Shown here: positions 3,943 through 63,398 of the stretch, one piece after another | Layout: the number at the start of each line of letters is the position of its first letter | Numbering within the stretch: the first letter of the stretch is position 1 | Made by a program: the position numbers and the translations under genes | The notes under the pieces: model-generated | Seen by the model: only the letters and a program-made list of their open reading frames with translations | Database searches by the model: none | What the model was told of the DNA's origin: nothing | DNA from: Chloroflexia bacterium SDU3-3 | Lineage (GTDB): Bacteria > Chloroflexota > Chloroflexia > Chloroflexales > Roseiflexaceae | Direction of reading: 5' to 3' | Assembly: GCA_009268125.1 (NCBI GenBank) | Contig: WBOU01000006.1 | Span: 257,807 to 321,806 of the forward strand | Length of the DNA: 64,000 nucleotides

Positions 3943-4872
3943 ATGCATGACCTCATCATTATTGGCGGCGGGGCGTCGGGCCTCTCGGCGGCGCTGTACG
4001 CCCAGAGCAAGCAGCTGGATGTACGCGTGATCTACCAGGAGGTCGGCGGCAAGACCGGGCGGCAGCAGCACCTGCACCAGCAGGACAACGAGGAGTACCT
4101 GGCCGGAGCCGAGGCGGTGATGCAGTTCGAGCGCCGCGTGACGGCCCAGGCCAGCACCGTGCTGCGCGACCGCGTGCTGGGCATCACCCGCAGCCACGAG
4201 GATTTCATCGTCGAGACCCAGATCAACGGCAAGCTGGCCGCGCGCAGCGTGATCGTTGCCACCGGCGCGTCGCCGATCAAGCTGGATGTGCCGGGCGCGC
4301 GCCAGTTCGCCGACCACGGCATCGGCTACTCGGCCACCACCCACGCCCACCTGCTGGAGAACAAGACCGCCGCCGTGATCGGCGCGACGCCCCGCGCGGT
4401 GGCTGGCGTGATCGAGCTGGCTCGCACGGCGGCGCGGGTCTACCTCGTCACCGCAGGCAAGCACGACCTGATCGACCCGCTGGCGGCGACGCTGGCCCGC
4501 TACCCCAACGTGACGGTGCTGCGCAACTACAAGGTGCGCGAGGTGCAGGGCACCACCTCGGTGGAGCAGGTGGTGATCGAGCGCGACGAGGAGCTGTCGT
4601 ACCTGCGCGTGAATGCGATCTTCGCCGACCTGGGCCTGCTGCCCAACACCGGCGTCGTGCGCAACCTGGCCAAGCTCGATGAGGATGGCTTTATCGAGGT
4701 GGATGGGCGCAACCACACCAGCGTGTCCGGCCTGTTCGCCGCTGGCGACTGCACCACCCGCTTCGGCGAGCACAGCCTGATCGCCGTGGGCGAGGGCGTG
4801 CGCGCCGCCCAGAGCGCCTACACCTACCTGCTGAGCCACCCGCTCATCCTTGAGCCAGAGCCGGCGGACTAG
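3943..4872 (+). CDS. Thioredoxin-reductase-like FAD/NAD(P)-dependent oxidoreductase lacking the CxxC
   Basis: A 309-residue two-dinucleotide-binding-domain flavoprotein. The N-terminal FAD site GGGASG (residues 8-13), the ATGASP strand (107-111) and the C-terminal FAAGDC FAD motif are all present, and the overall order is that of low-molecular-weight thioredoxin reductase. At the position of the redox-active CATC, the sequence reads S130-A-T-T133, so the disulfide needed to reduce thioredoxin is absent. The NAD(P) fold (GATPRA) also departs from the usual GxGxxA/G. It may be a ferredoxin-NADP-reductase-like or other single-flavin reductase; the substrate is unknown. AAAGGA precedes the ATG. 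It is divergent from pflB and followed by a terminator. Confidence 0.8.
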   Translation: MHDLIIIGGGASGLSAALYAQSKQLDVRVIYQEVGGKTGRQQHLHQQDNEEYLAGAEAVMQFERRVTAQASTVLRDRVLGITRSHEDFIVETQINGKLAARSVIVATGASPIKLDVPGARQFADHGIGYSATTHAHLLENKTAAVIGATPRAVAGVIELARTAARVYLVTAGKHDLIDPLAATLARYPNVTVLRNYKVREVQGTTSVEQVVIERDEELSYLRVNAIFADLGLLPNTGVVRNLAKLDEDGFIEVDGRNHTSVSGLFAAGDCTTRFGEHSLIAVGEGVRAAQSAYTYLLSHPLILEPEPAD

Positions 4873-4900
4873 GCCCGCACCACAGCAAGCGCACCCGAAT

Positions 4901-4943
4901 GCGGCGCACCTCCTAGTAGCTAGGGGGTGCGCCGCGCTGTTTC
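4901..4943 (+). terminator. Intrinsic terminator after the flavoprotein gene
   Basis: GCGGCGCACCTCC pairs with GGGGGTGCGCCGC around a nine-base loop (one mismatch), followed by GCTGTTTCT. It sits 29 bases after the stop codon. Confidence 0.75.
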
Positions 4944-5467
4944 TGCGGCGTGCGCCCCTCACGTGGTGTCACTTTTAGGGTTGTTTTTGGGTCGGGTCGA
5001 CCGTAGGCAATGCTTGCAGCGTTGCACGGTCGGGGCGACCCAAGGTGCCATGCACGATAGCGGTTCCGCTTGTATGCTGGGTGAATGCCCTGCGCAGGCG
5101 GCGCACAGAGGCCTGCGCCTGTGAACCCCGCCAGGGGGCGTTGCCCCTTGGAACCCCAATTTAAGGCCTTCCTATGCCATTCCCTGACCGCTGGTGTTCG
5201 TGCATATGGCCAGTTTACACGAGCGGCACCTTCGCCGCATGGGCCAGGTGGGTGGGGGTGGCATCGTACCATTCTCCCTCGCGCCTTCGCACCCTTATGG
5301 GTATTCGTCTCCTTGGTGTCTTGGTGGTACATCGCCCTCCTACATCCAGCGGGCAGGCGCAGCCGTAGAATAGGGTGCAGAAGAGAGGAGAAGCCCAGGC
5401 CCAAGCAGGCATGCCGCCCACGTGCGCATGCCCGCCTGGGGTGGGTCCAGGCAAAGGAACCTAACTA
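4944..5467. other. Intergenic region with remnants of dispersed repeats; no gene seen
   Basis: No credible gene is present. 4990-5043 holds an inverted repeat (GGTCGACCGT with ACGGTCG-GGCGACC). 5123-5157 is a hairpin-forming GCCAGGGGGCGTTGCCCCTTGG block flanked by AACCCC, a type often dispersed in GC-rich genomes. 5296-5328 ends in CCTTGGTGTCTTGGTGGT, resembling one arm of the inverted repeat at 48913-48971. These look like decayed intergenic repeat elements. The msrA promoter must lie at the right end but is not obvious. Confidence 0.5.
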
Positions 5468-6010
5468 ATGACTGCAGGAACAGAGATCGCAACACTGGCG
5501 GGCGGGTGCTTCTGGTGCCTTGAGGCGATCTACGACGATATCATCGGTGTCACCGACGTGGTCTCGGGCTACGCCGGGGGCAGTGTGCCCAACCCCAGCT
5601 ACGAGCAGGTGTGCACCGGTGGCACCGGCCACGCCGAGGTGGTGCAGCTGCGCTTCGACCCGCAGCAGATCAGCTTCCGCGAGCTGCTGGGCGTGTTCTT
5701 CAGCATCCACGACCCCACCACGCTCAACCGCCAGGGCCACGACGTGGGCACGCAGTACCGCTCGGCGATCTTCTTCCACAGCCCCGAGCAGCAGCGCGTG
5801 GCCCAGGAGGTGATCGCCGAGCTGACTGAGCAGCGCGCCTTCGCGCAGCCGATTGTCACCCAGGTGGTGCCCTTCGAGCAGTTCTACGCCGCCGAGGGCT
5901 ACCACCAGGAGTACTTCGCGAACAACCCCAACCAGCCCTACTGCCGCGCCGTGGTGGCCCCCAAGGTCAGCAAGTTCCGCAAGAGCCACGCCGCGCGACT
6001 GAAGGTCTAG
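5468..6010 (+). CDS. msrA: Peptide-methionine (S)-S-oxide reductase MsrA
   Basis: A 180-residue protein with the MsrA active-site motif GGCFWCLEA; the nucleophile is Cys14. The downstream GYAGG, GHAEVVQ and YHQEYFANN segments that form the methionine-sulfoxide pocket are conserved. It repairs oxidised methionine in proteins, with the enzyme recycled by thioredoxin. Cys17 and a cysteine near residue 161 could serve as resolving residues, though their roles cannot be assigned from sequence alone. AAAGGA lies nine bases upstream of the ATG. It is monocistronic and convergent with the kinase gene, whose end is six bases away. Confidence 0.96.
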
Positions 6011-6016
6011 CGCACA

Positions 6017-8989
6017 TCACCCTGCCGCTGCGGCGCGCTCGCGGGCCAGCCGCAGCGGCAGGCGCACCGTGAAGGTGCTGCCATGGCCCTCGGCGCTGTC
6101 GATCAGCACCTCGCCCCCGTGCTGCTGCACGATCTCGCCCACCACATACAGCCCCACCCCCAGGCCCGATATCTTACGCCTGTCGATGTTCTCAGCGCGG
6201 TAGAATCGATCGAACAGGTGCGGCAGCGCATCGGCGGGTATGCCGATGCCGTGGTCGCGCACCGTGATCTGGGCGTAGTCGCCATCCTGATCCAGCCCCA
6301 CCGCGATATCGCCGCCGCTGGGGCTGTACTTTATCGCATTCTGCAGCAAGTTCTGCAGCACCTGCTCCAGCCGCAGCTCGTCGCCATCCACCACTAGCTC
6401 GGCGTCGTCGGCCACGTGCAGCTGCAGCACATACGGCCCCTGGATGAGCTGCAGCTCGCGCAGCACGCGGCGGGCCAGATCGGCCAGATCCACGGGCGCG
6501 CGCATGATCGCCAGCTGGCCCTCCTGGATGCGCGAGATATCGAGCATGGTCAGGATCATCTGGTGTAGCCGCCACGACTGATCCTGGATGACCTGCAGCG
6601 CCCAGCGGTCGCGCTCGCCCAGGTCGTCGCGGCGGGCCAAGCTGCGCTGCAGCAGCTGGGCCGTGCCCAGCAGCGAGGTGAGCGGGGTCTTCAGCTCGTG
6701 GGCAGCCACCGAAAGAAACTGGTCGCGCAGATCGACCGCAGCCTCGGCATCGAGGCGGGCCTGGCGCTCGGCGGCATCCAGGCGGGCGCGCTGCAGCGCC
6801 TGGGCGTAGTAGCGCGCCAGGGTGTAGAGCAGGGCGCGCTCGTCGGGGGCGACGCAGTCCACAGCCTTGAAGCGCAGGCACAGGCAGCCGATCGGCTGGC
6901 GGTTCACCACCAGCGGGATCGCCGCCAGGGTGCCGCTGGCGGGCTGGCCATCGGCGGCCAGGCTGGGCACGCCAGCGTTGGGCGGGTCGATCCACAGCGG
7001 CTCGGCCATGGCCACCGTGCGCGCCGCTGGCATGGTGGATGTGCGGTGGATGCGCCGCCAGCGCGCGATCGCCTGCGCCGAGTAGCCGTGGGCACGCTCC
7101 AGCTCAAGCCACTCGCCATCCTCGCTCAGCAGCATCACCCAGATCCCACGGATGGGGAATGCCTGATTGAGGTGCGCGATGATCACATCCGTCACCGCCG
7201 CAGGCGTGAGCGCCTGGGTCAGCGCGCCGGTCATCTGGGTCATCAGCGCGCCCATGGCCTCGGCGCGCTTGCGCTCGGTGATGTCCATCACCACCGCGCC
7301 CACGCCAGCCACCGCCCCGCTGGCCATGCGCACTGGGAAAAGCGAGAGCAGCCACGTGCCATCCGGGCGCGATGGGAAGAAGCCGTGCAGCTCCATATTC
7401 AGCAGTGGCTGGCCAGTGCCGAGCACGCGCTGGAAGGAGGCGGCGATGCTTGGGGAGAGCGCGGGGAACATCTCGTGCACCGTGTGGCCCAGGTGCTCCT
7501 CGACCGACAGCTCGTTCAGGGCCGCCAGCGCCGGGTTGATGTGCACATAGCGCAGATCCGAATCCCAGATCGCCAGACCCACCGGCACGGTGTGCACTAG
7601 GCTCTCAAGCCGCGCCCAGGCCGCATCGCTCTGCGAGATCGCCTCGTGGGCATCGCGGTGCAGCCGCACGCGCTCCAGCGCGTGGCAGCCCTGCTGCACC
7701 AGCATGTCGAGGTAGTCCATGTCGGCCTGGCCTGGCTCGCGGCCATAGGTGAAGGCTAGGCCCAGCACGGCCACCAGCTGGCCGCCCAGCAGCACTGGCG
7801 TGGCCAGCCACGAGCCGACATGGGCGCCGCAGCGCTCGTAGAGCGCGGGGAAATGCTCGGCCCACTCGCCCGGCGCATAGAAGTGCGGCTGCCGATCGTG
7901 CAGCGCCTCGATCAGCGGATGGGGCGCGGCGGGGGCCTGGTGGGTGAGCCATAGATCGGCAAAGCCACCCTGCGTGCGGTGCTCGGTGAGCGTCGGCGGC
8001 TCGCCCTGCGTCACAAACAGCGCGCCGGCATAGGCCCCCAGGCCGCTGTGGGCCACACCCAGCAGGGCATCCAGCACCTCGCCGGGCGAGTTGGCGGCGT
8101 CCAGGATCGTGAGGCTCTGGCGCAGTGCCGATAGCTGGCTATGTATGGCGTCTGAACGATTCTCATTCAGCTCGCTTAAGGCTGGGCGCTCCGCCGCCAT
8201 ACGTTTCTGCGCGGTCACATCCTCGGCGATCCGAATCAGCACATCTGCACTCACCGCCCGCCCCACCGCCCGATAGGCCCGGTCGTGAATCCAGCGCAGC
8301 TCGCCGCCGGGACGCACGATCCGATACTCCAGATCATACAGCCCGATCTCCAGGCCACGCGCATAGGCCTGGCGCACGCGCTCCCGATCATCGGCGTGCA
8401 CCGCCTGCAGCCAGTGGCCGGGGCTATGGTAGAGCGGGTGGTGCGAGCGGCCCCAGATCTTGTCGTAGGAGGGGCTGACATAGCGGATCTGGTGGCAGCG
8501 CGCGTCGATCAGCCAGAACACATCGCGCCCGGCCCCGTCGATCGGCGCGGCCAGCTCGGGCGGCGGGCTGTGGGGCGGCCTCGGCTCCTGCCCGCCCTGG
8601 CAGCGGCGGGCCGTCACCACCAGCAGGCCGCCATCCATGGGCTGCATGGCCACGTCGAACCACTGGCCCAGCCATGGGGCGTAGATCGCGCTGGTGAGTG
8701 GGTGGCGGTTGATCATGGCACGAAGGTGCAGATCATGCAGCCCCCCATCGGCATCGGGCAGAATATCCCATGCCAGCGCACCCAGCAGGCGCTCGCGGCC
8801 AGCGGCCAGAAAACGCTCGGCAGCACCGTTCCCGTAGATATAACGTCCATCGCGATCAAACACATAGCACGCATCGGGGAGCGCGCCAAGGATCGCAGCC
8901 AACTGCTGCGATGCGAGTCCCTGCGGCATCATATATATGCTAGGGTCACGCTCAAACATCTGATCTGCTGACATGTCTTGCGCTAACAC
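6017..8989 (-). CDS. Multi-sensor histidine kinase (PAS-PAS-GAF-PAS-GAF-HisKA-HATPase)
   Basis: A 990-residue protein without visible membrane segments, so probably a cytoplasmic sensor. It begins with a PAS domain (about 25-110), then a PAS with PAC tail (about 150-265), a GAF (about 300-440), a third PAS (about 455-575) and a second GAF (about 590-740). The kinase core has the phospho-acceptor His764 in AAHELKTP, the N box LQNLLQNAIKYSP, DHGIGIP and GLGVGLYVV. Multiple PAS/GAF inputs suggest light, redox or small-ligand sensing, but the ligand cannot be told. The likely start is GTG with AGGAAG upstream; an ATG five codons in lacks a site. No response regulator is adjacent. Confidence 0.9.
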   Translation of the reverse strand: MLAQDMSADQMFERDPSIYMMPQGLASQQLAAILGALPDACYVFDRDGRYIYGNGAAERFLAAGRERLLGALAWDILPDADGGLHDLHLRAMINRHPLTSAIYAPWLGQWFDVAMQPMDGGLLVVTARRCQGGQEPRPPHSPPPELAAPIDGAGRDVFWLIDARCHQIRYVSPSYDKIWGRSHHPLYHSPGHWLQAVHADDRERVRQAYARGLEIGLYDLEYRIVRPGGELRWIHDRAYRAVGRAVSADVLIRIAEDVTAQKRMAAERPALSELNENRSDAIHSQLSALRQSLTILDAANSPGEVLDALLGVAHSGLGAYAGALFVTQGEPPTLTEHRTQGGFADLWLTHQAPAAPHPLIEALHDRQPHFYAPGEWAEHFPALYERCGAHVGSWLATPVLLGGQLVAVLGLAFTYGREPGQADMDYLDMLVQQGCHALERVRLHRDAHEAISQSDAAWARLESLVHTVPVGLAIWDSDLRYVHINPALAALNELSVEEHLGHTVHEMFPALSPSIAASFQRVLGTGQPLLNMELHGFFPSRPDGTWLLSLFPVRMASGAVAGVGAVVMDITERKRAEAMGALMTQMTGALTQALTPAAVTDVIIAHLNQAFPIRGIWVMLLSEDGEWLELERAHGYSAQAIARWRRIHRTSTMPAARTVAMAEPLWIDPPNAGVPSLAADGQPASGTLAAIPLVVNRQPIGCLCLRFKAVDCVAPDERALLYTLARYYAQALQRARLDAAERQARLDAEAAVDLRDQFLSVAAHELKTPLTSLLGTAQLLQRSLARRDDLGERDRWALQVIQDQSWRLHQMILTMLDISRIQEGQLAIMRAPVDLADLARRVLRELQLIQGPYVLQLHVADDAELVVDGDELRLEQVLQNLLQNAIKYSPSGGDIAVGLDQDGDYAQITVRDHGIGIPADALPHLFDRFYRAENIDRRKISGLGVGLYVVGEIVQQHGGEVLIDSAEGHGSTFTVRLPLRLARERAAAAG

Positions 8990-9269
8990 TATAGAGATAC
9001 TTCCTGCACTTCCGATGCCCGAGTGGTAAGGCAGCTAGGCCGCCGCTCCGCATCAAAGCAACCCCTAACGTAACAAGGCATGCTTCGCATCCGCACAACG
9101 CTGTGATCTGCATGGGTAGTACATCGCCCCATGGCAGTGATAGCTTGTCGCTCAACCTCCGGTGTTGCCTGCCCAGTGTACCACTGCCTATCCAAGATCA
9201 CAATAGCAATACAAGCAGCTGTTAGTTCTCCGATCATAACTCTGGCAGCAAGCGCATCCCAATGCGGGC
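8990..9269. other. Intergenic region between the kinase gene and the pst terminator; no gene seen
   Basis: The stretch contains the unassigned kinase promoter and no credible coding or RNA gene. A short segment near 9016-9046 resembles the D-arm of a class II tRNA but no full cloverleaf can be folded. Confidence 0.4.
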
Positions 9270-56413: not shown

Positions 56414-56437
56414 CGCACGCGGCGCACACGAAGCGCG

Positions 56438-56646
56438 CAATGTGGGCGGGCATGAAGCCCGCCCCTACATCATCGTTTTTCATCGTCCCCCGATGGGCGC
56501 GATGCCCCGCCACGGTGTAGGGGCGGGTCTCGTGCCCGCCCGCGCCGTGGCCATCGCATCCATCGACACCATCCCCGATGCATGCAATGTGGGCGGGCAT
56601 AAAGCCCGCCCCTACATCATCGTTTTTCATCATCCCCCGATGGGCG
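56438..56646. repeat. Pair of 62-bp direct repeats with an inverted partial copy between them
   Basis: 56438-56499 and 56585-56646 are the same 62-bp sequence with two differences (start CAATGTGGGCGGGCAT, end CCCCCGATGGGCG). Each contains the small hairpin GGGCGGGC / GCCCGCCC. Between them 56517-56545 holds a related copy in the opposite direction (GTAGGGGCGGG with GCCCGCC). This is a dispersed intergenic repeat type. The remaining stretch to 56724 holds nothing else visible. Confidence 0.8.
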
Positions 56647-56724: not shown

Positions 56725-57189
56725 CTAGTGGCGGTGCGGCTCCTCCAGCTGGGCCAGCACCGCCTCGGCGATCGCGCCCAGCGCCGCGACCTGATCGGCG
56801 CTGAGCACATCCATCACATACTGGCGCACGGCCTGCTCGTAGTGGCGCTGGGCCTGGGCGGCCAGGGCGCGGCCCTGCGGGGTGATGCGGATGAGCGTGC
56901 TGCGGCTGTCCTCGGCGCACTGCTCGCGGGTGAGCAGGCCGCGCTGCTCCATACGCTGGAGCTGGTGCGAGAGGCGGCTCTTCTCCCACGCTAGCCCGCA
57001 GCGCAGCGCCAGCGAGCGCATCGACTCGTCGGGCGAGGCGATCAGCACCGTCAGGATCTCGTAGTCGGCCTCGGAGAGGCCGGTGGCGCTGGCGAGATCG
57101 CGGCCAAGCCGCCCAGTGAGGCGGGCGCGCATGCGCTGGTAGCTGGCCCAGGCGGCGGCCTGCTGGGGGGTAAGCGGGTGCTTGTTCAT
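56725..57189 (-). CDS. MarR-family transcriptional regulator
   Basis: A 154-residue regulator with the MarR winged helix: SEADYEILTVLIASPDESMRSLALRCGLAWEKSRLSHQLQRMEQRGLLTREQCAEDSRSTLIRITPQG, including the wing Asp-Ser-Arg. MarR proteins are usually dimeric repressors released by small phenolic or antibiotic-like ligands. The two palindromes in the divergent region (57202-57215, 57232-57247) are its probable operators, so it should control both itself and the luciferase-like operon. The ATG is followed directly from a TATACT -10 (57201-57196), so its message may be leaderless; a GTG two codons upstream is less likely. Confidence 0.93.
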   Translation of the reverse strand: MNKHPLTPQQAAAWASYQRMRARLTGRLGRDLASATGLSEADYEILTVLIASPDESMRSLALRCGLAWEKSRLSHQLQRMEQRGLLTREQCAEDSRSTLIRITPQGRALAAQAQRHYEQAVRQYVMDVLSADQVAALGAIAEAVLAQLEEPHRH

Positions 57190-57201: not shown

Positions 57202-57247
57202 GTTGATATGTCAACCGCATGCTGCTATACTGGTTGATATATCAACC
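57202..57247. promoter_or_regulatory. MarR operators overlapping the divergent promoter
   Basis: GTTGATATGTCAAC (57202-57215, one mismatch) and GGTTGATATATCAACC (57232-57247, perfect) are two copies of the same palindrome with centres about 31 bp, or three helical turns, apart. The plus-strand promoter TTGATA (57203-57208), 17 bases, TATACT (57226-57231) has its -35 inside the first operator and its -10 just before the second. Confidence 0.88.
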
Positions 57248-57266
57248 TAAGCAAGGGCACACCGTG

Positions 57267-59534
57267 ATGAACTACGGACATACGCTCGCCTTCGGCACCT
57301 TTATCACCCCGCGCAGCGACGCGCCCGAACGCGTGGTGGCGCTGGCCCAGCGCAGCGAGGCGCTGGGCTACAGCCTAGTGAGCTTTCAGGATCACCCCTA
57401 CCAGCCTGCGCTGCTGGACGCCTGGACGCTGCTGGCCTGGGTCGCCGGGAAGACCGAGCGCATCCAGATCGCGCCGAACGTGCTGAGCATGCCGCTGCGC
57501 CAGCCAGCGGTGCTGGCCCGCGCCGCCGCCAGCCTGGACCGCCTGAGCGGCGGGCGGCTGGCGCTGGGGCTGGGCGCGGGCGCGTTCTGGGATGGCATCA
57601 AGGCCATGGGTGGCTGGCGGCTGGCCCCCGGCGAGGCCGTGGGCGCGCTGGGCGAGGAGATCGACATCGTGCGCGGCATGCTCGACACCGGCGAGCGCGG
57701 GCCGCTGCAGCTGGATGGCGACTACTACGCGGTGGCCGGGGCCGAGCGCGGCCCCGCGCCCGCCCACGACATCCCGATCTGGGTGGGGGCCTACAAACCG
57801 CGCATGCTGCGGCTGCTAGCGCAGAAGGCCGACGGCTGGCTGCCCTCGCTGGGCTACATCCAGCCACACGAGATCGCCGCCGCCAACGCCACCATCGACC
57901 ACGCCGCCCGCGAGGCCGGCCGCGACCCGCGCGAGATCCGGCGGCTGCTGAACATCTCGGGCCAGTTCACCGCGCAGCGCGGCGGCTTCCTGAAGGGCAC
58001 GAGCCAGCAGTGGGTGGAAGACCTGCTGCCGCTGGTGGTGGAGCACGGCATCAGCACGCTCATCCTGATGGCCGACGACGTCGAGGTGATGGAGCAGTTT
58101 ATGGCCGAGGTGGCCCCGCCGCTGCGCGAGGCCGCGCTAGCCGCAGCGCCCCAGGGCGCGGCGGGGCCGGTGCGGCGGGCGGCGGCGCTGGCCAAGCGGC
58201 GGCAGGGCATCGACTACGACCGCATCCCCGCCGCGCTGCGCGAGGCCGCCGTGGAGCCGGGCGACATCGCCTTCGCCCGCGTGCGATCTACCTACATGCG
58301 GCGCGGTGCGCCGGGGCTGGTGCTGCGGCCCAGCACGCCCGACCAGGTGGCGCAGGCGCTGGCCTTCGCCCGCACGCAGCAGGGCGTGCCGCTAGGCATC
58401 CGCAGCGGCGGCCACGGCATCAGCGGGCGCTCCACCAACGACGGCGGGATTATCATCAGCCTCGACCAGATGAACAGCATCGAGGTGATCGACCGCGCCG
58501 CGCGGCGGGTGCGGCTCGGCCCGGCGGCGCGCTGGATGGATGTGGCCGCCGCGCTGGAGCCGTACGGCTGGGCGATCAGCTCGGGCGACTATGGCGGGGT
58601 GGGCGTGGGCGGGCTGGCCACGGCGGGCGGCATCGGCTGGATGGCGCGCAAGCACGGCCTGACCATCGACCACGTGCGCGCCGTGGATGTGGTGCTGGCC
58701 GACGGCAGCCAGGTGCGGGCCAGCCAGCGCGAGAACCCCGACCTATTCTGGGCCATGCGCGGCGCGGGCGCGAACTTCGGCATCGCCACCGCCTTCGAGC
58801 TAGAGGCCGACGCGGTGGGGCGGGTGGGCTGGGCGCAGCTGGTGATGGACGCCAGCGACACGGCGGGTCTGCTGCAGCGCTGGGGCGCGGCGGTGGAGGC
58901 CGCCCCGCGCGACCTGACCAGCGCGATCATCCTCGGCCCGCCCCGGCGCGGCCAGCCGCCGATCGCTCAGGTGATGGCCATGGTCGACTCGGACGACCCC
59001 GACACGATCATCCGCCAGCTCCAGCCGCTGGCCGACATCGCCCCGATGTACGACCAGAGCGTGGTGCTCACATCGTACGCCAGCGTGATGGCCAACGCCG
59101 ACCCCGCCGACCACGACGGCCAGGGCGAGCCGCTGGGGCGGGCCGGGCTGCTGGGCCAGATCACGCCCGCGTTCGCCGCCGACGCCGCGCGGCTGCTGCA
59201 GAGCGGCGTGGTCTACTTCTTCCACATCCGCGCGCTGGGCGGCGCGGTGGCCGACGTGCCCGCCGAGGCCACGGCCTACGCCCACCGCCAGGCCAACTTC
59301 TCGGTAAACGCGTTTGGCACCAGCAGGCTGCGGCTGGATGCGCTGTGGGATGGCATGGCGAGGCACTTTCAGGGGCTGTACCTCAACTTTGAGACCGACC
59401 TGCGGCCCGAACGCGTGGCCGAGGCCTTCCCGCCCGCCACGCTGGCCCGGCTGCGCGACCTGAAGCGCCGCTACGACCCCGAGAACGTGTTCCGCGACAA
59501 CTTCAACATTGCACCGCAGCAGGAAGGGGCGTGA
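57267..59534 (+). CDS. Luciferase-like monooxygenase fused to a BBE-type FAD-linked oxidase
   Basis: A 755-residue two-domain enzyme. Residues 1-305 are a luciferase-like (LLM) flavin or F420 domain: LAFGTFITPRSDAP, LVSFQDHPYQ, GRLALGLGAGAFWDG and DIPIWVGAYKPRM. Residues about 335-755 are a berberine-bridge-type FAD oxidase: RSGGHGISGRST with the probable covalent His383, GVGVGGLATAGGIGW, and the C-terminal YDPENVFRDNFNI. In bicovalent members a Cys stands in GxCxxVG; here it reads GDYGGVG (Tyr442), so FAD is likely held by one bond. The fusion joins two flavin chemistries in one chain. The next gene is an LLM paralogue. ATG was preferred to a GTG just upstream. Confidence 0.85.
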   Translation: MNYGHTLAFGTFITPRSDAPERVVALAQRSEALGYSLVSFQDHPYQPALLDAWTLLAWVAGKTERIQIAPNVLSMPLRQPAVLARAAASLDRLSGGRLALGLGAGAFWDGIKAMGGWRLAPGEAVGALGEEIDIVRGMLDTGERGPLQLDGDYYAVAGAERGPAPAHDIPIWVGAYKPRMLRLLAQKADGWLPSLGYIQPHEIAAANATIDHAAREAGRDPREIRRLLNISGQFTAQRGGFLKGTSQQWVEDLLPLVVEHGISTLILMADDVEVMEQFMAEVAPPLREAALAAAPQGAAGPVRRAAALAKRRQGIDYDRIPAALREAAVEPGDIAFARVRSTYMRRGAPGLVLRPSTPDQVAQALAFARTQQGVPLGIRSGGHGISGRSTNDGGIIISLDQMNSIEVIDRAARRVRLGPAARWMDVAAALEPYGWAISSGDYGGVGVGGLATAGGIGWMARKHGLTIDHVRAVDVVLADGSQVRASQRENPDLFWAMRGAGANFGIATAFELEADAVGRVGWAQLVMDASDTAGLLQRWGAAVEAAPRDLTSAIILGPPRRGQPPIAQVMAMVDSDDPDTIIRQLQPLADIAPMYDQSVVLTSYASVMANADPADHDGQGEPLGRAGLLGQITPAFAADAARLLQSGVVYFFHIRALGGAVADVPAEATAYAHRQANFSVNAFGTSRLRLDALWDGMARHFQGLYLNFETDLRPERVAEAFPPATLARLRDLKRRYDPENVFRDNFNIAPQQEGA

Positions 59535-59538
59535 CGCC

Positions 59539-60438
59539 ATGGGCGACTATGGGCACGAGCTGCAGTTTGGCAGCTTTATCACACCGGCGGCGCAGCCCGC
59601 CAGCCGCGCCGTCGAGCTAGCGATCGCATCCGAGCAGGCCGGGCTGGATCTGGTCACGTTCCAAGACCACCCCTACCAGGGCAAGTTCTACGACACATGG
59701 ACGCTGCTGGCCTACGTGGCCTCGCGCACCAGCCGCATCCGCGTGGCGGGCAACGTGCTGAACCTGCCGCTGCGCCAGCCCGCCGTGCTGGCCCGCGCCG
59801 CCGCCAGCCTCGACCTGCTGAGCGGTGGGCGCTTCGAGATGGGTCTGGGCGCGGGCGCGTTCTGGGATGGCATCGCAGCCATGGGCGGCGACCGCCTGAC
59901 GGCTGGCGAGTCGATCGCGGCGCTGGAGGAGGCGATGGCGATCATGCGGCAGATCTGGGATGTGGGCCAGCCAGGCGGCGTGCGCGTGGATGGCGGGCGC
60001 TACCACGTGGTCGGGGCCAAGCGCGGGCCTGCGCCCGCCCACCCGATCGGCATCTGGCTGGGGGCCTACAAGCCGCGCATCCTGCGGCTCACGGGCCGCG
60101 CCGCCGACGGCTGGCTGCCCTCGCTGGCCTACCTGCCCGGCGGCCTGCCCGACCTGGAGGCCATGAACGGGCATATCGACGCGGGCGCGGCGGCGGCGGG
60201 GCGCGACCCGCGCGGCATCCGGCGTATGCTGAACATCGCGGGGCAGTTCAGCCGCGAGCCGCGCGGGCTGCTGGCCGGGCCGCCCGACATGTGGGCCAGC
60301 CAGCTGGCCGACGCCGCGCTGACCTACGGCATCAGCACCTTCATCCTGGCGGTGGGCGACGAGGCGACCATCGAGCTGTTCGCCAGCGAGGTGGCACCGG
60401 CCACGCGAGCGCTGGTGCGGGCCGCTCGCGCCTCCTAG
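59539..60438 (+). CDS. Luciferase-like (LLM-class) flavin/F420-dependent oxidoreductase
   Basis: A 299-residue stand-alone LLM enzyme, close to the N-terminal half of the preceding gene: LQFGSFITPAAQPA, LVTFQDHPYQGKFYDTWTLLAYVA, RFEMGLGAGAFWDG and GIWLGAYKPRILRL all have direct counterparts there. The two arose by tandem duplication, one then gaining the oxidase domain or the other losing it. Members use FMN, FAD or coenzyme F420 to oxidise small molecules; the substrate is unknown. It starts four bases after the stop of the fusion gene, so the two are co-translated. Confidence 0.88.
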   Translation: MGDYGHELQFGSFITPAAQPASRAVELAIASEQAGLDLVTFQDHPYQGKFYDTWTLLAYVASRTSRIRVAGNVLNLPLRQPAVLARAAASLDLLSGGRFEMGLGAGAFWDGIAAMGGDRLTAGESIAALEEAMAIMRQIWDVGQPGGVRVDGGRYHVVGAKRGPAPAHPIGIWLGAYKPRILRLTGRAADGWLPSLAYLPGGLPDLEAMNGHIDAGAAAAGRDPRGIRRMLNIAGQFSREPRGLLAGPPDMWASQLADAALTYGISTFILAVGDEATIELFASEVAPATRALVRAARAS

Positions 60439-60468: not shown

Positions 60469-60505
60469 GCGGCGGCACGCCAAGCACGTGCCGCCGCACT
60501 TTTTT
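60469..60505 (+). terminator. Intrinsic terminator after the LLM operon
   Basis: GCGGCGGCACG pairs with CGTGCCGCCGC around seven bases and is followed by six T, 31 bases after the stop codon. Confidence 0.9.
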
Positions 60506-60520
60506 CTCAAAAAATACTGC

Positions 60521-60549
60521 TTGACAAAAACAAAAGGGTACTCTATATT
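60521..60549 (+). promoter_or_regulatory. Sigma-70-type promoter of the ROK gene
   Basis: Consensus TTGACA (60521-60526) and TATATT (60544-60549) are 17 bases apart. The start point lies inside the adjacent palindrome. Confidence 0.85.
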
Positions 60550-60574
60550 TATTTCATTCAGTGAATGAAATAAA
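60548..60574. promoter_or_regulatory. 27-bp perfect palindromic operator of the ROK regulator
   Basis: TTTATTTCATTCA and its exact reverse complement flank a single G. The site overlaps the -10 and the start point. Its TTATTT...AAATAA ends match the outer half-sites known for the ROK repressors Mlc and NagC. A GTG within the palindrome could be read as a start, but the ATG at 60588 is more likely. Confidence 0.88.
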
Positions 60575-60587
60575 GAAAAGCGCGACG

Positions 60588-61832
60588 ATGAGCTACACCC
60601 AGAAAACCGACCGCCTGCTGATGAAGCAATCCAACCAGCGCATGGTGCTGCAGATCATCCAGGGCAGCGGGCCGATCTCGCGGCGCGACATCGCGCAGCA
60701 GTCGGGGCTCAGCCCGGCGGCGGTGTCCGGCATCACCGCCGGCCTGATCGAGAGCGGCCTGGTGCAGGAGGTGGGCGAGACCGAGGAGAGCGGGCGGGCC
60801 GGGCGCAGGGCCATCCTGCTGCGGCTGAACCCGCAGGCGGGCTTCGTGGTGGGCGTCAAGCTCGCCATGCACTCGATCGACTGCGTGGTGACCGACCTCG
60901 ACGCCACGGTGCTGCACAGCACCAGCGCGCCGCTGGCCTTCAGCGCCGCCCCCGACGACATCCGCGCCCGCTACGCGCCCGACGAGATGATCCGCATGAC
61001 CATCGCGGCAGTCGAGCAGATCCTGGCGGCGGCGGCCATCCCGCCCGAGCAGATCCTGGGCATCGGCATCGGGGTGAACGGGATCGTGGATGCGGCGTTG
61101 GGCGTCTGCCGCTCGGCCCCGCACTTCGGCTGGCGCGAGGTGGCCCTGGCCGCGCCAATCGCCGCGCGCTTCGGCATCCCCGTCTCGCTGGAGAACGACT
61201 CGCGCACGCTGGCGATCGCCGAGCAGTGGTTTGGCGCTGGGCGCGGCGTCGATCACTTCGTGGGCATCTCGGTGGGCTACGGCATCGGCTCGGGCATCGT
61301 GAGCAACGGGCGGGTCTACCGGGGCGCGCACGGCGGCGCTGGCGAGTTCGGCCACATGGCGCTGCTGCCGGGCGGGCCGCTGTGCACCTGCGGCAAACGC
61401 GGCTGCCTTGAGGCGCTGGCGGGCGAGCGCGGCATCCTGGCCGCTGTGGCCGAGGCGCTGGCCCAGGGCGAGCCGAGCGCGCTGGCCCAGGCCCAGCCGC
61501 CCACGCTGGACGCGGTGGCCGCCGCCGCCGACGCGGGCGACGCCCTAGCCCGCCGCGTGCTGGCCGAGGCCGGGCGCTGGCTGGGCGTGGGCATCGCCAA
61601 CCTGATCAATATGCTGAACCCGCAGCGCCTGGTGATCAACGGCGAGGTGGTGCGCTGCGGCGACTGGTACTTCGGCCCCATGCGCCAGTCCATCCTAGCC
61701 AGCGCCTTCGACGGGCTGGCCGACGACCTCGACATCCAGATCGCGCCCAGCGGCGACATCGTGTGGGCGCGCGGCGCAGCCTGCGTGGTGCTCAGCGAGC
61801 TATTCACCGCGCCGATACCACGAGACAACTAG
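60588..61832 (+). CDS. ROK-family transcriptional regulator
   Basis: A 414-residue regulator. An N-terminal winged helix (about 12-75: NQRMVLQIIQGSGPISRRDIAQQSGLSPAAVSGITAGLIESGLV) precedes a ROK domain. The ROK signature GGAGEFGHMALLPGGPLCTCGKRGCLEAL with its CxCGxxGC zinc ligands is intact. The DxGGT-type phosphate-binding loop of ROK kinases is replaced (GVKLAMHSID), so it is a sugar-responsive repressor rather than a kinase. Its likely operator overlaps its own promoter, and the sugar transporter genes that follow are the probable targets. Confidence 0.93.
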   Translation: MSYTQKTDRLLMKQSNQRMVLQIIQGSGPISRRDIAQQSGLSPAAVSGITAGLIESGLVQEVGETEESGRAGRRAILLRLNPQAGFVVGVKLAMHSIDCVVTDLDATVLHSTSAPLAFSAAPDDIRARYAPDEMIRMTIAAVEQILAAAAIPPEQILGIGIGVNGIVDAALGVCRSAPHFGWREVALAAPIAARFGIPVSLENDSRTLAIAEQWFGAGRGVDHFVGISVGYGIGSGIVSNGRVYRGAHGGAGEFGHMALLPGGPLCTCGKRGCLEALAGERGILAAVAEALAQGEPSALAQAQPPTLDAVAAAADAGDALARRVLAEAGRWLGVGIANLINMLNPQRLVINGEVVRCGDWYFGPMRQSILASAFDGLADDLDIQIAPSGDIVWARGAACVVLSELFTAPIPRDN

Positions 61833-62033: not shown

Positions 62034-63398
62034 ATGGATCACAACCACAGCTCGCGGCGCGCATTCCTGAAGACCATGGGCGGCATGGGCGGCGCATCGC
62101 TGCTGCTCGCGGCCTGCGGCGGCGGCCAGAGCGCCACCACCGCCACCGTAGCCCCCGCCGAGGGCGGCGCAGCGACCAGCGCGCCCAGCGCTGGCGGCCA
62201 GGTCAAGCTGCACTTCCTGAGCGCTCAGGTGGAGAACGCGGGCTACACCGGCGTGATCGGCGCGCTCAGCAAAGAGTTCCAGCAGCAGAACCCCAGCGCG
62301 GTGTACGAGTACGAGCAGTCGCCGCAGACCGATGTGGAGCAGAAGATCCAGCTGCTGGTGGCCAGCAACAGCCTGCCGCTGCTGTTCGTCTCGCCCGCCA
62401 CCGGCACCATGAACGAGATCGCCAAAAAGGGCCTCTCGGTCAACGTCGAGCAGACCTTCAAAGAGCTGGGCATCTTCGACACGATCAAGCCGGTGGCGGC
62501 GGATCTGGTGCGCAAGATCGGCGGCGGCAGCATGAATGTGCTGCCCACCGAGCTGAACATCGAGGGTATCTGGTACAACAAGCAGATCTTCGCCGAGAAC
62601 GGCCTGAGCGTGCCCGCCACCTGGGACGACATGGCCAAGGCCGCCGAGGCGCTGAGCGCCAAGGGCATCCAGCCCTTCGCAGCCTCGGGCGAGCAGGGCT
62701 GGCCGCTGACGCGCCTGATCGGCGGCTACGCGGTGCGCAAGTACGGCGCGGATGTGATGGAGCGCGTGGCCAAGGGCGAGCTGAAGCTGACCGACGCCGG
62801 TTTTGTGGAGGCCGCCAAGGCCGTGCAGGATCTGGGCACCAAGGGCTACTTCGGCGAGGGCGTCAGCACAGTGGACTACGACACCGCCACCGACCTGTTC
62901 CTGCAGGGCAAGGCCGCCATGTTCTACATGGGCAGCTGGGTGGTGGGCGACTTCAACAACGCCGAGCGCAACCAGATCGGCGCGGAGAACATCGGCTTCT
63001 TCAACACCCCCACGGTGGCGGGCGGCGCGGGCAGCGCCGACGACTGGTCGATGAACACCGGCCTACCTATCGCCATCGGCCAGGCCGAGTACAGCAAGAA
63101 CCCCGAGCTGGTGGGCAAGTGGCTCACCTACGTGTTCAAGGCGTTTGGCGAGCGCGCCCTGAAGGATCAGGGCCTGATCACAGGCTTCACCGTGGCCAGC
63201 ATGCCCAGCGACGTGCCCGCGCTCACCAACCTGGTGCAGCAGACCATCGACAGCGCGAAAAACGCCTTCCTCTACTTCGAGGGCTACTTCGCGGGCGAGG
63301 CCCAGACCACATCGTACAAGAACGTGCAGCTGCTGGTGACGGGCGACATGAGCGCCGAGGACTTTGTGGCCAGCATCCAGCAGGCGCTGGAGAAGTAG
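62034..63398 (+). CDS. Sugar ABC transporter substrate-binding lipoprotein (Tat signal)
   Basis: A 454-residue extracellular solute-binding protein of family 1. The N-terminus has a twin-arginine motif SRRAFLK and a lipobox LLLAAC (Cys28), so it is probably exported folded by Tat and lipid-anchored. A short Ala/Thr/Pro-rich linker leads to the binding domain, with features such as LNIEGIWYNKQIFAENGLSVPATWDDM and GKAAMFYMGSWVV common to oligosaccharide-binding proteins. It feeds the permease encoded next. AAGGAGA precedes the ATG. The sugar cannot be told. Confidence 0.93.
   Translation: MDHNHSSRRAFLKTMGGMGGASLLLAACGGGQSATTATVAPAEGGAATSAPSAGGQVKLHFLSAQVENAGYTGVIGALSKEFQQQNPSAVYEYEQSPQTDVEQKIQLLVASNSLPLLFVSPATGTMNEIAKKGLSVNVEQTFKELGIFDTIKPVAADLVRKIGGGSMNVLPTELNIEGIWYNKQIFAENGLSVPATWDDMAKAAEALSAKGIQPFAASGEQGWPLTRLIGGYAVRKYGADVMERVAKGELKLTDAGFVEAAKAVQDLGTKGYFGEGVSTVDYDTATDLFLQGKAAMFYMGSWVVGDFNNAERNQIGAENIGFFNTPTVAGGAGSADDWSMNTGLPIAIGQAEYSKNPELVGKWLTYVFKAFGERALKDQGLITGFTVASMPSDVPALTNLVQQTIDSAKNAFLYFEGYFAGEAQTTSYKNVQLLVTGDMSAEDFVASIQQALEK

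Follow-up and report, generated by a model that had tools for sequence, protein, structure and literature searches.

What does a bacterium gain by joining two different redox enzymes in one polypeptide? This question is raised by a gene in a 64,000-nucleotide stretch of contig WBOU01000006.1 from Chloroflexia bacterium SDU3-3 (hereafter the window, to which positions refer unless another locus is named). On the + strand, at 57267-59534, a single open frame of 755 residues encodes a luciferase-like (LLM) domain followed by a flavin adenine dinucleotide (FAD) oxidase domain. The Pfam domains Bac_luciferase (residues 9-229), FAD_binding_4 (350-485) and BBE (705-748) all score above their cut-offs. 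Domain and gene order agree with the original prediction, made from the sequence alone, of one chain in which an LLM domain precedes a covalent-FAD-type oxidase. Translation probably starts at ATG 57267 rather than at ATG 57219, which would give a longer protein, because homologues and the LLM paralog encoded by the next gene begin there (MNYGH versus MGDYGH). The fusion consists of three parts:

57267-58169, + strand: fused N-terminal LLM domain, residues 1-301 (PF00296, 2.7e-46), which keeps Asp42-His43
58170-58271, + strand: inter-domain linker, residues about 302-335, with conserved columns in the fusion alignment
58272-59534, + strand: C-terminal FAD oxidase domain (FAD_binding_4 and BBE; EncM-like), stop codon included

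Is this chain an oddity of one genome? As the original prediction had proposed, we looked for chains with both LLM and BBE domains in other genomes and mapped their neighbours. Scanning 84,980 species genomes gave at least 80 loci with near full-length fusion matches, and an extra sample of 400 host-phylum genomes gave five more. Altogether there are at least 86 full-length fusion loci, the window included, in Actinomycetota and Chloroflexota; dozens of soil bacteria are among the carriers, which include Agromyces, Microbacterium, Agreia, Cellulomonas, Promicromonospora, Micromonospora, Microbispora and Nocardiopsis as well as Chloroflexota. When the 86 fusions were aligned, the linker columns I315, Y317, P321, P331, G332 and D333 were nearly invariant. 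Because 85 other loci have full-length copies and positions between residues 305 and 335 are conserved, a sequencing or frameshift artefact is ruled out. In the oxidase tree, almost every fusion has its oxidase half in a single clade (support 98), and by this tree the fusion is of one old origin. Two oxidases without a fused LLM (L094 and L095) are nested secondarily inside that clade. None of the eight host-family members within the 400-genome sample carries the fusion, which points to a patchy distribution among close relatives of the host. The original prediction had allowed that the fusion might prove common and already characterised. It is common; both halves belong to well-studied families, and the joined form is absent from the literature searched (few subscription journals and no preprints covered), where no description of an LLM-BBE fusion was found.

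Two further loci carry altered versions. At L130, positions 5624-6715, a fusion remnant retains an LLM domain 69% identical to that of the window and the linker, with no oxidase domain; a DoxX gene lies directly beside it, and an HxlR-like protein is encoded close by. At L123, positions 5379-7780, an oxidase 68% identical to that of the window, nested among the fusions, lies beside a different LLM gene (only 40% identical), which by sequence is a replaced LLM half.

What chemistry should be expected of the oxidase half? Both of its domain matches and an EncM-like fold place it among the BBE-like FAD oxidases of the VAO/PCMH superfamily. In sequence as in fold, its closest relative is the FAD-dependent oxygenase EncM of Streptomyces (PDB 3w8w, 6fyd and others). 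The sequence match is at 4e-59; the folds superpose with Z 42 and an rmsd of 2.9 over 427 residues, at 31% identity, and a site for His-linked FAD is common to both. Next by sequence and fold come the related FAD oxidases McrA (mitomycin radical oxidase; Z 40) and 6-hydroxy-D-nicotine oxidase (Z 36), which differ from the fusion in having 28% identity and no LLM domain. The best NCBIfam match is the BagK/FevA1 FAD oxygenase family (NF041226, 2.6e-54), a model without an LLM domain; the fusion scores 184 against a cut-off of 800 and is not a member.

The FAD-linking position, His383, is invariant in 86 of 86 fusions. Position 442, the site of the second-link Cys, was located through the GVGG motif and holds Tyr in 70 sequences, Ser in six, Phe in five and His in five; Cys occurs in 0 of 86, so that the second Cys link of the bicovalent BBE subgroup fails throughout. 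The replacement of this Cys by Tyr, noted in the original prediction, is confirmed, and these data support a monocovalent-type FAD site with a single predicted link through His383. EncM residues V135, V136 and T139 align with D441, Y442 and V445 of the fusion, and Val445 is present in 86 of 86 sequences. EncM, which has a single domain and serves antibiotic biosynthesis, works through a flavin-N5-oxide, whereas the fusion has Val for Thr139 and an attached LLM domain. A T139V change in EncM gives oxidase activity (PMC7662398). Because the Thr139 equivalent is always Val here, EncM-type flavin-N5-oxide chemistry is not expected, and the oxidase half is expected to act as an ordinary oxidase with O2 as acceptor rather than as an N5-oxide oxygenase.

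Does the LLM half use the deazaflavin F420 or flavin mononucleotide (FMN)? The two LLM domains encoded in the window score 158.8 and 155 bits against PF00296 (cut-off 27.9) and so belong to the luciferase-like monooxygenase superfamily of TIM barrels. The best PDB sequence match of the fused domain is the F420-dependent enzyme Mer, whose Asp-His aligns with Asp42-His43. A fold search with the whole fusion listed the oxidase half only; the LLM half was modelled separately (pLDDT 94.5) and searched by itself, and its eight best fold matches are F420 enzymes (Mer, Fgd, Adf; Z 33 to 31). The F420-dependent luciferase-like hydride transferases Mer, Fgd1 and Adf are accordingly the nearest known systems by sequence and fold. 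Unlike them, the fused LLM is joined to an oxidase, and it falls under every specific NCBIfam cut-off (118.5 bits versus 231.4 for TIGR03560; 117.3 versus 166.9 for TIGR03619).

F420 genes were found in all 49 genomes with a fusion or split form, with CofD above its curated cut-off in 44 and CofE (F420 ligase) in the other five. In Microbacteriaceae, CofD occurs in 17 of 18 genomes with the fusion, compared with 88 of 200 in the family background (one-sided Fisher 2e-5, ignoring relatedness, with some reduced genomes in the background). The host itself carries a cofE-nitroreductase-cofD-cofC-LLM cluster (L122, about 4591-9021; contig C7:182591-187021). We had entertained the idea that F420 was impossible in a host lacking CofH, and dropped it once CofD, CofE and CofC were found together. 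CofD is present in all eight host-family members sampled, and CofH had no match in the host or in 23 relatives from its family (f1). This pattern suggests that the host tailors F420 without a recognised FO synthase, by salvage of FO or through an unknown enzyme. Taken together, the F420 genes in all 49 genomes, the structural ranking and the Microbacteriaceae enrichment favour F420 over FMN as the more likely cofactor, and point to hydride transfer rather than monooxygenation.

In another family of the host order (f3; G034, G043, G070, G078 and G102), CofH-like hits stay under the cut-off of 374 bits, at about 320, and none of the five genomes has CofD; MqnC, MqnE or another radical-SAM enzyme may account for these hits. 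Apart from the two LLM genes of the window, the host genome (G000) has about 14 LLM-type matches at 27-42% identity, several of them on contig C11.

A series of observations weighs against F420. By fold, the nearest FMN enzymes, among them SfnG and luciferases, fall short of the F420 enzymes by no more than about two Z units. The CofD excess is not significant in fusion genomes of Chloroflexota (background 253 of 400), the co-occurrence counts are uncorrected for relatedness, and five fusion-bearing genomes have no recognised CofD. A search of the host genome recognised neither CofG nor CofH (FO synthase). Finally, a Streptomyces plasmid (L133) encodes the LLM and the FAD oxidase separately, in genes with a 4-nt overlap; beside them lie a divergent HxlR regulator and a Flavodoxin_2/FMN_red reductase gene, and the reductase could instead supply reduced FMN. 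The fold scores of the FMN enzymes, the five genomes and this reductase gene would fit an enzyme in which the LLM parts are FMNH2-dependent monooxygenases, of which the superfamily has many, fed by a host flavin reductase, and in which the FAD domain oxidises the hydroxylated product, giving two successive oxidations like those of the original prediction. We consider this arrangement unlikely, though worth keeping in view. The window operon has no flavin reductase, and both the universal presence of F420 genes in the 49 genomes, with CofD well above background in one family, and the match to Mer and its fold relatives argue for F420. An oxidation combined with an F420-linked step fits this evidence better than two oxygenations.

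How might an oxidase and a probable F420 hydride transferase work in one chain? The conserved fusion, and the occurrence of the same pair as overlapping separate genes elsewhere, suggest that the two sites are coupled. One form of coupling would be redox-neutral: the oxidase would dehydrogenate its substrate, and an F420H2-linked LLM would reduce the product again, at another position or with the opposite stereochemistry, which would make the fusion an epimerase or isomerase. A plant P450/reductase fusion that inverts reticuline is a model for an epimerase-type fusion, and the two activities in one chain naturally fit such logic. FAD oxidases of this family move hydride from substrate to FAD and trigger rearrangements (PMC11375781). 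No dedicated F420 reductase was recognised among the conserved neighbours, however, and we judge a redox-neutral converter quite unlikely. The picture we prefer as most economical is that an FAD-oxidase step and an F420-linked step would act on one small molecule.

What does the second gene contribute? The fusion is followed after 4 nt by a standalone LLM gene, and promoter and terminator at either end delimit a two-gene operon:

57203-57231, + strand: sigma-70-like promoter TTGATA-17-TATACT with TG before the -10 (10/12 matches)
59539-60438, + strand: standalone LLM paralog P0002, 299 aa (PF00296, 3.9e-45), DH motif kept
60469-60497, + strand: intrinsic terminator, an 11-pair GC-rich stem followed by ACTTTTTTCT, which closes the operon

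Two promoter-like sites were found in the region against 0.2 expected. The bicistronic pair of the original prediction is borne out, and so is its second gene as an LLM paralog. A recent copy of the fused half it is not: the LLM tree puts fused and standalone copies in separate old clades, with the standalone LLM of the window in a separate 15-row clade of partner LLMs, which rules out recent tandem duplication. Such a gene adjoins the fusion at 23 of 86 loci. The remaining 63 are without one, so the second LLM gene is not essential to the fusion.

All 63 single-gene fusions and all 23 standalone partners have the Asp42-His43 motif. Where the fused LLM has a partner, His43 is lost at 13 of 23 loci, and the losses are only ever on the fused copy; in the window both copies keep the DH motif and look active. 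In an LLM tree built without the DH-motif columns, the losses need three changes, in a Micromonospora group, a Cellulomonas group and the L091/L092 pair. From these alignments, the fused LLM seems to be released from catalysis where a standalone partner exists. The one-sided loss suggests a catalytic and structural division of labour as in bacterial luciferase, where the LLM paralogs LuxA and LuxB are encoded side by side and one of the two can lose its active site. By this analogy the fused LLM may partly be the docking half of a putative LuxA/LuxB-like pair, which would differ from luciferase in the FAD oxidase attached to one LLM. That the fused LLM is mainly structural everywhere, a dimerisation or docking module for an enzyme with one active centre, strikes us as very improbable: the 13 losses of His43 and the motif, the long branch of the Cellulomonas-type fused LLMs in the LLM tree, and L094 and L095, which dropped or replaced the LLM domain and kept the oxidase, speak for it, but the motif and the other conserved LLM residues are kept in all 63 single-gene fusions and in the window copy, which is unlikely without selection on activity.

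How is the two-gene operon controlled? Divergent from the fusion lies a MarR gene, and two palindromes flank the core of the promoter:

56725-57189, - strand: MarR-family repressor gene P0003, 154 aa (Pfam MarR_2 and MarR above cut-off), divergent from the fusion
57202-57215, unstranded: operator 1, GTTGATATGTCAAC, a perfect palindrome over the -35 hexamer
57233-57246, unstranded: operator 2, GTTGATATATCAAC, a perfect palindrome that begins shortly after the -10 and covers the expected transcription start

The pattern GTTGAYNNRTCAAC has exactly two matches in the whole 6.76-Mb genome, both of them here and far above chance, and the reversed control pattern has none. A larger MarR regulon was rejected, as no further perfect operator exists in that genome. 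Equivalents with small deviations precede the fusion gene at 10 of 10 other loci with a homologous MarR, from Chloroflexota, Thermomicrobiota and Micromonospora. Because the motif is kept although these MarRs share only 38-68% identity with that of the window, the footprint is strong sequence evidence pointing to a dedicated repressor. The divergent repressor and the operators were both part of the original prediction and both hold as sequence features. The nearest solved structures of P0003 are the MarR proteins 3zmd and 3zpl. Cys91, near the wing, and most of the WEKSRLxHQ segment are common to 11 of 11 homologous MarRs at fusion loci, and a counterpart of Cys91 is also found in 3zmd and 3zpl; redox sensing through Cys91 is possible. 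A MarR regulator, BagL/FevM, also belongs to the BagK/FevA1 pathway, and P0003 shows a weak match to it.

Across the fusion loci, the divergent regulator is a window-type MarR at 11 (window counted), HxlR at nine, another MarR type at seven and AraC at one. In L127, too, the fusion is preceded by HxlR, and DoxX genes adjoin L129 and L130. No neighbour except the regulators is widely conserved, and a wider biosynthetic or catabolic cluster was rejected for this reason. Neighbours of the HxlR/MarR and DoxX types are familiar from quinone and electrophile stress modules. Their presence, with that of the Flavodoxin_2 reductase, hints weakly at an aromatic or antibiotic-like substrate.

With moderate confidence, we propose that the locus is a self-contained, inducible operon for processing a small molecule, in which the fusion couples a covalent-FAD oxidase to an F420-type LLM. 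A MarR dimer on the two palindromes, at the -35 and the transcription start, would block the promoter until a ligand, or modification of the conserved Cys91, releases it. The C-terminal domain would hold FAD by a single His link, take hydride from an organic substrate and pass the electrons to O2. The N-terminal domain would be a luciferase-like barrel of the hydride-transferase type, most likely with F420, and the product of one redox site would be passed to the other. The second gene would add a further LLM subunit, which may pair with the fused one. The most likely role, though weakly supported, would be to detoxify or break down a small compound, perhaps an aromatic or a quinone-like one. 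Of the overall interpretation first offered, an oxidation or detoxification path for an aromatic or antibiotic-like compound, the fusion, the bicistronic operon, the dedicated MarR control and the monocovalent-type FAD site stand; the two-step oxidation with a channelled intermediate stays hypothetical, and its substrate class stays at the level of the hint just described.

Several neighbouring features lie outside the operon. Between marR and the preceding gene there is a 71-nt intergenic repeat in two copies, 93% identical (56429-56499 and 56576-56646), rich in GGGCGGGC/GCCCGCCC palindromes and REP-type in appearance, with an inverted partial copy at 56516-56541. Beyond the terminator, at 60521-61832, a strong promoter (TTGACA-17-TATATT) precedes a ROK-like repressor gene, followed at 62034-63398 by a gene for a sugar-binding ABC transporter-like protein. 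Both genes were named by eye and are unrelated to the operon.

More broadly, and tentatively, the fusions may represent a widespread class of double flavoenzymes in which an F420 hydride-transfer centre and a covalent-FAD oxidase carry out a coupled oxidation-reduction on one molecule. In their two-gene branch, the fused LLM would be turning into a pseudoenzyme as the two LLMs evolve into an asymmetric pair resembling LuxA/LuxB. As a whole we hold this scheme to be doubtful. To our knowledge, there is no earlier case of deazaflavin chemistry fused to a covalent-FAD oxidase. If the LLM half uses F420, this would be the first such fusion known to us, and one in which the transfer of a substrate from one redox centre to the other could be tested cleanly. 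Through the repressor and its local operators there is a direct route to the inducer, and hence to the substrate. The repeated one-sided loss of His43 would be a natural record of an enzyme domain becoming a partner subunit.

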